Assembly (NCBI RefSeq): GCF_004349065.1
Contig: NZ_SMKZ01000005.1
Span: 1 to 64,000 of the forward strand
Length of the DNA: 64,000 nucleotides
Reading direction: 5' to 3'
DNA from: Jiangella asiatica
GTDB taxonomy: Bacteria > Actinomycetota > Actinomycetes > Jiangellales > Jiangellaceae
How positions within the stretch are numbered: the first letter of the stretch is position 1; each line of letters begins with the position of its first letter. The translations under genes were made by a program, and so were the position numbers. The notes beneath the pieces were generated by a model that saw only the letters and a list, made by a program, of their open reading frames with translations, was not told the origin of the DNA and made no database searches. Positions 59,550 through 61,501 of the stretch are shown here, piece by piece.

Positions 59550-59900
59550 TCAGGAGGCCAGGTTCCAGCCGAAAGCGGCTGCGGCCAGGCCGGCAGCGAC
59601 GCTCAACGCGACATTGCCGACGGCGTGCCGCCAAGCGCCGTCCTCGGCCAGCCGCAGGGTCTCGTAGCTGAACGTGCTGTACGTGGTCAGCGCACCGCAG
59701 AAGCCCACGCCGACGAGCGACACGACGCCGTCGTCGGCGGCCGAGCCCATGACCAGGCCGAGCACGAACGAGCCGACGACGTTGACCAGCAGGGTGCCCC
59801 ACGGGAACGCGCCGCCCAGCCGCTCGTGCACGAGCCGGTCGACGACGTAGCGCAGTGGTGCGCCGACGGCCGCACCGGCCGCCACCAGCAGCATCGTCAC
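59550..59900 (-). CDS. crcB: Fluoride channel CrcB/Fluc (second copy)
   Basis: The protein has 116 residues with four membrane segments. [18 protein letters not shown] carries the conserved Asn, and [13 protein letters not shown] is the pore Phe/Thr-Ser signature. It forms a dual-topology dimer that exports F-; paired copies often make heterodimers. GTG 59900 overlaps the DUF190 stop (GTGA); the ATG at 59894 is an alternative start. Confidence 0.93.
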
Positions 59901-60241
59901 CGGTCACCGCTCCGCCCGGTGTGCCGGACCACGTCGACGTCGGCCAGGGTGATCAGGCCATCCGCCACCAGCGATTCGATCTCGGCCACGAACGGCCCGA
60001 GCTTCGCCGCGACGTCCACGATCACCACCGCGACCGGCAGGTCCGCGGAGAGGCTGAGGAATCTCGTGGTGTGGACGTGGTCGGAGGCGCCGAACCCCTC
60101 GATGCCTCGGAACACGCTTGCCCCGGCCAGTCCGGCCGCGTGCGCACGGTGGACGATCTCGGCGTACAGCGGCCGGCCGTGCCAGGTGTCGCTCTCGCCG
60201 ACGACGACGGTGAGCTGGCGGGCCGCGCCCCGCAGCGTCAT
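59897..60241 (-). CDS. DUF190 family protein
   Basis: The protein has 114 residues; a PII-like ferredoxin fold is implied by [21 protein letters not shown] and the following pattern. The family is often encoded with crcB. The start ATG at 60241 overlaps the upstream crcB stop, and its own stop overlaps the next crcB start, so it sits between the two channel genes. It may regulate them; evidence is contextual. Confidence 0.88.
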
Positions 60242-60666
60242 GCGCGCACCTCCTCCGCCGACGAGCCACGGCCCATCAGCACCGTACGGGTGATCGCCGT
60301 CCCGAGCCACAACGCGACCAGCGCCGCCACGGGGGTCACCGCCAGGTAGAGCAACGCCCCGCCGTAGCGCTCGTGGACCAGCATGACCTGGACGTCGACG
60401 GCGAAGGTGGAGAACGTCGTGTACCCGCCGAGCACCCCTACCCCCAGGAACGGCCGCAGCAGCCGGTGTGGTGCGGTGAGCTCCAGCAGCACGACCATCA
60501 ACGCACCGATCACGAGGCACCCGGTGACGTTGACCAGGAGCGTCGCCCACGGCCAGGACGGCGGGCCGTGCTGGAGCGAGCCGAGGGCGTGCCGCACGAG
60601 CGACCCGAGGACGCCGCCGGCGGCGATGACCGCCAGCACGGGGACGTTGCGCCTCACCCTGGGCAT
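60238..60666 (-). CDS. crcB: Fluoride channel CrcB/Fluc (first copy)
   Basis: The protein has 142 residues with four membrane segments. [29 protein letters not shown] and [12 protein letters not shown] match Fluc. The ATG at 60666 has GGGAGAG 6 bp before it; that ribosome binding site can pair with the end of a probable fluoride riboswitch just upstream. First gene of crcB-DUF190-crcB. Confidence 0.94.
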
Positions 60667-60673
60667 AGAACTC

Positions 60674-60756
60674 TCCCTACCGTCGACGAAACCCGAGGTA
60701 GGGACTGTTGGCCGGGCCACGGGGGGCCGCGGCGGTTGTCGGCGAGCCCCACCGCC
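60674..60756 (-). promoter_or_regulatory. Probable fluoride (crcB) riboswitch with ribosome-binding-site switch
   Basis: Read on the minus strand, 60756-60741 forms stem GGCG/CGCC with loop GTGGGGCT, followed by AACCGCC and a GC-rich hairpin. AGTCCCTAC then pairs (6 bp: GGGGCU with AGUCCC) with that loop. This is the pseudoknot plan of the crcB motif and ends in the conserved CTAC. Deviations: loop starts G instead of A, and the usual GATG before the 3' strand is CAAC. TCCCTACC (60704-60697) is exactly complementary to GGTAGGGA (60681-60674) at the ribosome binding site. A translational off-switch without fluoride is inferred. Confidence 0.7.
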
Positions 60757-60769
60757 ATCGGGCCCGAGT

Positions 60770-61501
60770 CTACCGGCTGGAGCCGACGGCTACCTGCGCG
60801 AAGCTCTGGGCCACCTGGGCGAACCGCTCGGCCAATGCCCGCCCGGCCGCGGCCACCTCCGGGTCGCGGGCCTCCAGCTCGGCCGTCACCGCGGCGACGT
60901 CGACGTCCGGCAGCTCGCGCGCCCAGCCCGTGAACGTCGGCAGCGACACCTCCGGGTGGAACTGCACGCCCCACGCGGCCGCGCCCACCCGGAACGCCTG
61001 GTGGGGATACATCGGCGACGACCCCAGCCAGACCGCGTCCGGCGGCAGCCCCGTGACCGCGTCGGCGTGCATGCTCGGCCCGGGGAACGGCGCGGGCAGC
61101 CCGCTGACCAGCGGGTCTGTCGTCGCCGGTGGCAGCCATGACACGGTGACGACGCCGGACTCGCGGCCCGCCGCGGCGGCGACGTCCACCGTCCCGCCAC
61201 ACGCGACCGCCAGCAGCTGGGCGCCCAGGCAGATGCCGAGCGTCGGTGTTCCCGCGTCTACGGCCGCGGCCAGCAGCGAGCGCACCGCGGGCAGCCACGG
61301 CGCGACGCCGTCGTCGTAGGCCGACATCTGCCCGCCGAGCACGATCAGCCCGGCACCGCCCGGCGACGGCGGCAGCGGCTCGCCCGCGTACGGCCGGTGC
61401 ATCCGGAGCTCGACGCCCGCGCCGGCCAGCCACGGACCGAACCGGTCCAGCGGGCAGCCCGGCTCGTGCTCGACGACGTCGACGACCGCGGCGGTGCTCA
61501 C
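60770..61501 (-). CDS. Class I glutamine amidotransferase (GATase1)
   Basis: The protein has 243 residues. The triad is seen as Cys in GICLGAQLLAVACGG and His-Glu in QFHPEVS. The GTG at 61501 overlaps the glnA2 stop (GTGA), so translation is coupled. The enzyme probably hydrolyses glutamine or a gamma-glutamyl compound. A link to gamma-glutamyl polyamine breakdown (as PuuD) next to a second GlnA is possible but not shown. Confidence 0.9.
   Translation of the reverse strand: MSTAAVVDVVEHEPGCPLDRFGPWLAGAGVELRMHRPYAGEPLPPSPGGAGLIVLGGQMSAYDDGVAPWLPAVRSLLAAAVDAGTPTLGICLGAQLLAVACGGTVDVAAAAGRESGVVTVSWLPPATTDPLVSGLPAPFPGPSMHADAVTGLPPDAVWLGSSPMYPHQAFRVGAAAWGVQFHPEVSLPTFTGWARELPDVDVAAVTAELEARDPEVAAAGRALAERFAQVAQSFAQVAVGSSR

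Follow-up and report, generated by a model that had tools for sequence, protein, structure and literature searches.

A probable variant of the fluoride riboswitch aptamer before crcB in Jiangella asiatica, predicted to act on translation and recurring among Actinomycetes

Fluoride riboswitches of the crcB motif (Rfam RF01734) are made up of a stem P1, an 8-nt loop, a pseudoknot and a hairpin P3, and stand before crcB, enolase and other fluoride genes. In published structures, A6 and U38 form a long-range reversed Watson-Crick pair and A40 and U48 a reversed Hoogsteen pair (PMC11586693; PMC8004769; PMC10687018, which numbers the first base of the A6-U38 pair as 10); the linchpin role of A40-U48 comes from Bacillus cereus (PMC8752731). 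In the switches of Thermotoga petrophila and B. cereus, which work via terminators, the 3' strand of the pseudoknot is shared with the expression platform; those of Pseudomonas syringae and Burkholderia are translational (PMC13273304). The locus described here has the architecture, the A40-U48 letters and the gene company of RF01734, and it agrees with the T. petrophila and B. cereus switches in fold, in the positions of the long-range pairs and in sharing the pseudoknot 3' strand with the platform. It differs from RF01734 by G6-C38 in place of A6-U38, by A39 and C41 in place of G39 and U41 and by a wobble at 11-44, and from the two terminator-based switches in that the shared strand is predicted to cover a ribosome site; the level of control is likely that of the P. 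syringae and Burkholderia switches.

The window (the whole 64,000-nt stretch of J. asiatica DNA that was analysed) holds this crcB-motif fold on its minus strand from 60756 to 60674, where P1, the 8-nt loop, a 6-bp pseudoknot and P3 can be read directly from the sequence (Table 1). The first loop base (60752), equivalent to position 6, is G where the consensus has A in the RF01734 alignment; the pseudoknot GGGGCT/AGTCCC consists of five Watson-Crick pairs and one G-U; and both linchpin letters, A40 and U48, are in place. The pseudoknot strand and U48 together have five bases in common with TCCCTACC, which is complementary at eight of eight positions to GGTAGGGA, and the latter ends 7 nt from the crcB ATG (60666). 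The stem, the loop of eight, its six-pair contact and the exact complement of the crcB ribosome site had all been announced in the original prediction and are present; the letters that follow AGTCCC, given there as CTACC, are TACC. Downstream come fluoride-response genes identified by Pfam, namely crcB, then a DUF190 gene and then another crcB, each overlapping the next, and on the 5' side a glutamine-amidotransferase-like gene (frame end 60770; named by sequence reading) with a glutamine synthetase gene farther upstream. We consider it very likely that this leader acts on translation as a fluoride riboswitch whose aptamer is of a variant type, because the alignment yields the fold, positions 6 and 38 are linked, the gene company is that of fluoride response and the complement of the ribosome site is conserved. 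Judged from sequence comparison, the ligand of the variant aptamer would be fluoride and the direction of switching ON.

Table 1. Elements of the crcB leader and following genes in the window, with loci of head-to-head aptamers in other genomes
Feature	Position	Strand	Basis
P1, 5' strand GGCG	60753-60756	-	Sequence; RF01734 and R2 alignments
8-nt loop GTGGGGCT	60745-60752	-	Sequence; RF01734 alignment
Pseudoknot, 5' strand GGGGCT	60745-60750	-	Sequence
P1, 3' strand CGCC	60741-60744	-	Sequence
P3 hairpin GCCG...CGGC, extended by GGCC/GGCC, one bulged base	60711-60733	-	Sequence
CAAC, positions 38-41 (consensus UGAU)	60707-60710	-	RF01734 alignment; linkage with position 6
C38, partner of G6; A40, partner of U48	within 60707-60710	-	
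Pseudoknot, 3' strand AGTCCC	60701-60706	-	6/6 pairs with 60750-60745
U48, linchpin partner of A40 (60708)	60700	-	Alignment
TCCCTACC, candidate strand for covering the ribosome site	60697-60704	-	Exact complement of 60681-60674
GGTAGGGA, contains the crcB ribosome site	60674-60681	-	Sequence; pairing probability about 1.0 without the pseudoknot modelled
crcB (Fluc fluoride channel subunit), first gene 3' of the leader	60238-60666	-	Pfam PF02537, E 5.3e-26
DUF190 gene, overlaps crcB stop	59897-60241	-	Pfam PF02641, E 1.3e-33
Second crcB	59550-59900	-	Pfam PF02537, E 5.9e-30
Head-to-head canonical and variant aptamers	L281:400-612; L280:10658-10936; L055:847-1133		

The stability of the leader fold is not unusual overall (z = -0.95); the case rests on comparison and not on folding energy. 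The minimum-energy fold computed without the pseudoknot forms an alternative GGCGGU/ACCGCC stem instead of P1, which counts against the aptamer reading. A motif grammar, composed after the motif had been seen, picks out a single place in the whole window, the crcB leader, and has no match in any of 20 windows simulated with a first-order Markov model; on these counts and the presence of the motif in relatives, a chance fold was rejected.

At the gathering threshold the whole window gives no Rfam match. In a permissive search of a 161-nt stretch, RF01734 aligns to 60692-60765 with a score of 17.1 bits (E 0.01), and the leader is the best RF01734 match of the 7.03-Mb genome (E 0.106). Since the gathering cut-off is 34 bits, the leader is not a member of the family by the Rfam rule; the Infernal check put forward with the original prediction thus points to the right place and strand, with half the score required. 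P1, the 8-nt loop, the six-pair pseudoknot and P3 are those of RF01734, and in its alignment the consensus letters A6, U38, G39 and U41 are replaced by G6, C38, A39 and C41. The low score is due to the G at position 6 and to CAAC for UGAU at 38-41. The loop change from A to G had been foreseen correctly; the other difference, first read as GATG to CAAC, is in fact UGAU to CAAC (U38C, G39A and U41C, with A40 kept). When RF01734 was run on 20 variant loci, 14 of the variants scored between 16.8 and 32.5 bits, six were not among the matches at E <= 10 and none reached 34; the sole match above 34 in these loci, on the minus strand of L042, is a canonical neighbour.

Within the genus, three of 12 genomes (that of the window, G003 and G006) carry the variant before the matching crcB; read by eye, it is absent from the 260 nt upstream of crcB in the other nine, so the leader is not essential there. 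For the class we used R1, a covariance model from four sequences with P1 only, and a second model, R2, with P1 and P3. R1 matched 177 of 393 genomes at E <= 0.01, and taking all 177 as carriers was rejected, many matches being due to chance. Of the listed R1 places, 69 (L039-L107) were read and 58 of these accepted, plus L147; those rejected are L083, L084, L095, L096, L097, L099, L100, L102, L103, L105 and L107. Eleven of the places taken in by eye do not pass the automatic filter (L044, L052, L056, L066, L069, L071, L073, L087, L089, L098 and L104). The hand list thereby places the variant in at least 55 of the 393 genomes, a lower bound as the weaker R1 places were left out, and the automatic criteria alone in 46. 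RF01734 matches 79 of the same 393 genomes at E <= 0.05 and 11 above its cut-off, and the best match read in each of these 11 is canonical, with A6 and UGAU or UAAU (L109-L119). Across the phylum, R2 gave matches at E <= 1e-4 in 19 of 396 genomes; all 11 matches in the ten genomes outside the class (L148-L158) are canonical A6/U38.

A pattern scan of named genomes (at least 120 stretches, with G6 and C38 required by the pattern) extended the picture: among the matches listed, variants passing the stem-and-pseudoknot test occur in Streptomyces, Kitasatospora, Nocardioides, Mycobacterium helveticum, Brevibacterium, Micromonospora, Actinomadura, Kribbella, Nocardia and other Actinomycetota. In 32 of the 120 listed loci the test found no match; these include records named Pseudomonas, Oscillospiraceae, Loktanella, Dormiibacterota and Sphingomonas, and also some Streptomyces. 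A variant outside Actinomycetota is unsupported among these 120 loci, and L214 (Chloroflexi) and L160, with five of six pseudoknot pairs and no CrcB, were not counted. Odd variants are L101 (G6-U38), L052 (G40 for A40) and L069 (a 7-nt loop). The suggestion of a crcB-type aptamer of a variant type is borne out by this comparison, as many actinobacteria share the variant letters, in most cases ahead of crcB. Apparently, the leader belongs to a common actinobacterial form of the fluoride riboswitch that has been overlooked so far, and this form is a real and widespread variant that probably acts on translation.

The letters at positions 6 and 38 change together. In the 63 sequences found by the models, which favour the letters of the sequences they were built from, all 14 that have A6 also have U38, and 48 of the 49 with G6 have C38, the exception being the G6/U38 of L101. 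This count is given for the model-found loci alone because the scan pattern fixed G6 and C38, which makes the scan uninformative on the linkage. Among 135 distinct grammar-passing sequences, the listed pattern-scan matches included, the figures are 16/16 for A6/U38 and 118/119 for G6/C38; 70 of these G6 sequences come from pattern-scan loci, where both letters were required. Entry to this set demanded 4/4 P1 pairs, 6/6 pseudoknot pairs, A40, U48, C47, G8, T/A at 7, A/G at 49, C50 and at least the three P3 pairs of the grammar, so the constancy of required letters is by construction and that of A40 and U48 is no test there; outside the pattern-scan loci, nothing was demanded of positions 6, 38, 39 and 41, and the motifs of L279-L282 lie outside the set. 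In a combined alignment of 58 sequences chosen for diversity (A4; 38 variants and 20 canonical), the pair is GC in 37, AU in 20 and GU in one, that is, standard-pair letters in 58 of 58. The tRNA Levitt pair 15-48, a reversed Watson-Crick pair, is naturally G-C or A-U. The analogy is one of pair type alone and implies no homology. At 6-38, G-C for A-U is a swap that a reversed Watson-Crick pair would allow, and G6-C38 may well keep the reversed geometry. Because the structures show 6-38 as such a pair, the linkage has the appearance of a tertiary contact whose two bases covary. It rests on few evolutionary events, since a CrcB tree of 73 proteins from few columns (11 A6 rows and, after removal of close likenesses, 62 of 90 G6 rows) needs three changes of form, at least two of them by well supported branches.

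Taken over all its members, the proposed aptamer would depart from the canonical one at 6-38 (G-C for A-U), at 39 (mostly A), at 41 (mostly C) and in the location of the wobble. Position 41 is looser than 6-38: the 38 variants of A4 have C41 in 32 and U41 in six, and C41 stands in 113 of 119 distinct variants when the listed pattern-scan matches are included. In B. cereus the switch no longer responds once U41 is changed to A (PMC11077080), and the change of U41 to C in the window leader counts against the fluoride-switch reading. Three pattern-scan loci, L179 (a Trebonia MAG) and L186 and L196 (3332-3402, minus strand; both Streptosporangiaceae MAGs), combine G6 with C38-G39-A40-U41 and have a C-G or U-G pair at 11-44. 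They are possible intermediates or of independent origin, and as they keep G39 and U41, the 6-38 change can stand without those at 39 and 41. Within the pseudoknot, canonical sequences of A4 have U-G at 13-42 in 11 of 20 and G-C at 11-44 in 15 of 20, and variants have G-U at 11-44 in 32 of 38 and C-G or U-A at 13-42 in 32 of 38. A single wobble pair is critical in two model riboswitches (PMC11077080), and the variant seems to have moved it to 11-44 from its often used canonical place at 13-42. The pairs of P3 show two-sided changes among relatives, in five of six pairs of an alignment of 36 rows (A3) for which P1 and pseudoknot pairs were required and P3 pairs were not. Of the 119 variants, again with the listed pattern-scan matches, 36 have G at position 49.

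A CrcB domain, detected by domain profile over three frames, lies within 1.6 kb downstream of 44 of the 51 distinct variants of the class loci, and at least two of the seven others run into the end of the available stretch. Over all loci, the listed pattern-scan matches included, CrcB with a start codon within 700 nt follows 93 of 119 distinct variants; a count of 88 in 111 motifs was set aside, as it mixes canonical motifs, repeated loci and a misread motif (L254). Enolase, often found in operons of fluoride riboswitches (PMC11139923), comes first after four variants (L147 and L210 by Pfam, L199 and L238 by reading of the translation). Other first genes encode histidine phosphatase/PGM-like (L195), Usp (L201), dynamin (L252), PPE (L080), MFS (L146), CBS (L179) and PAP2 (L196) proteins. 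The MFS transporter gene after L146:1501-1556 (minus strand; Pfam) has a counterpart after L208:2086-2141 (plus strand; translation similarity) in M. helveticum. PPE-family genes (Pfam PF00823) directly follow both the variant L080:320-377 (plus strand) and the canonical L109:1506-1553 (minus strand), in probably mycobacterial genomes, a hint that PPE proteins have some part in dealing with fluoride.

In the same class, canonical aptamers are followed by MutS-like, NUDIX-enolase, Usp-dynamin and PPE genes. In an island of the same genus (L279; G005:C201:48000-67900) two variant and three canonical aptamers are found, one of the latter with five of six pseudoknot pairs; the canonical ones stand before MutS-like, DUF190 and NUDIX-then-enolase genes and the two variants before crcB genes. 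At two places in G032 and one in G030, a canonical and a variant aptamer lie head to head, about 110-180 bp apart (Table 1). The scan of L280 also lists an A6-U38 motif with C41 (12195-12243) and a motif with five of six pseudoknot pairs (1995-2044). The occurrence of both forms in the same gene islands argues for one shared ligand. It is conceivable, if rather unlikely, that the G6-C38/C41 form makes up a second kind of fluoride aptamer, set apart in function by another affinity or ion preference: it would be kept beside canonical aptamers so that exporters and repair or metabolic genes switch at different fluoride levels, and the canonical U41 pocket contact would be replaced by another at C41. 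That the changes at 6, 38, 39 and 41 altered the specificity towards a ligand other than fluoride, the crcB company being historical, seems improbable to us; positions 6, 38 and 41 do join long-range contacts by the pocket (PMC11586693; PMC8004769) and some downstream genes (MFS transporter, CBS, PAP2) are not obvious fluoride genes, but CrcB is the main partner, enolase is a known fluoride target and canonical aptamers share the islands.

For a translational fluoride riboswitch, the reading we prefer, the expression platform would work by exchange of strands: without fluoride, TCCCTACC would pair with GGTAGGGA and hide the crcB ribosome site. Predicted without the pseudoknot, the covering helix TCCCTACC/GGTAGGGA has a probability of about 1.0 in the window. 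The pseudoknot/CTAC strand was compared with the 30 nt that end at the start codon in 82 non-redundant crcB-linked variants. The longest Watson-Crick stem has a mean length of 5.93, and of 5.27 +/- 0.10 when the partners are shuffled; none of 10,000 shuffles reaches the observed mean, and the stem is at least six long in 50 of 82. With one sequence per strand type (n = 16) the means are 5.63 against 4.79, reached by 21 of 10,000 shuffles, or by none of 10,000 when G-U is allowed; these shuffle controls leave the relatedness of the sequences in, and the start-codon rule favours likeness to a ribosome site. Pairing is kept with differing letters in CCTACTCG/CGAGTAGG, TCCCTGCGTG/CACGCAGGGA and CCTACCAG/CTGGTAGG. 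Stems with the ribosome-site region are short in 16 of 93 variants with crcB, when a longer region is considered (seven of length 3 and nine of length 4). The idea that the pseudoknot strand doubles as a cover of the ribosome site is strengthened, its complementarity being conserved beyond shuffled partners; an aptamer strand complementary to the ribosome site and conserved by compensating change, a feature of translational riboswitches, is present here. A genus member without the aptamer (L011) retains GGTAGGGAG at the crcB ribosome site, where it overlaps what seems to be the stop codon of the gene upstream; this looks as though a deletion had removed the leader and left crcB coupled to this upstream gene.

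Control of transcription by intrinsic or Rho-dependent termination, with the complement of the ribosome site as a by-product, would suit the many crcB motifs overlapped by predicted terminators (PMC2864571). We regard it as highly improbable here, given that no terminator-like hairpin with a T run was found in 60550-60900, that an assay with E. coli polymerase detected hardly any transcriptional members in Actinomycetota (PMC13273304) and that the complement exceeds its shuffles. Hardly credible is a decaying, functionless remnant of a canonical riboswitch, in spite of the weak Rfam score and the absence of the leader from nine of 12 genus members, for many families of the class have kept the same letters, while P1 and P3 show paired changes.

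No description of the G6-C38 form was found in the mainly open-access literature on the fluoride riboswitch and crcB within our reach, among it PMC2864571, PMC7266159, PMC6429828, PMC9495176, PMC7657543 and PMC13273304; an earlier description may exist elsewhere. If the variant fluoride riboswitch proposed here is real, surveys at the Rfam cut-off would miss most fluoride riboswitches of Actinomycetes (11 against at least 55 of 393 genomes). Only about 15% of Fluc channels are put under riboswitch control (PMC11139923), a figure that may then be an underestimate for Actinomycetes. The linkage would also provide natural covariation for the tertiary pair 6-38, which in the accessible literature we found described from structures and probing only, and the variants would offer natural changes around the fluoride pocket, U41 included, with which the requirements of the pocket could be tested.
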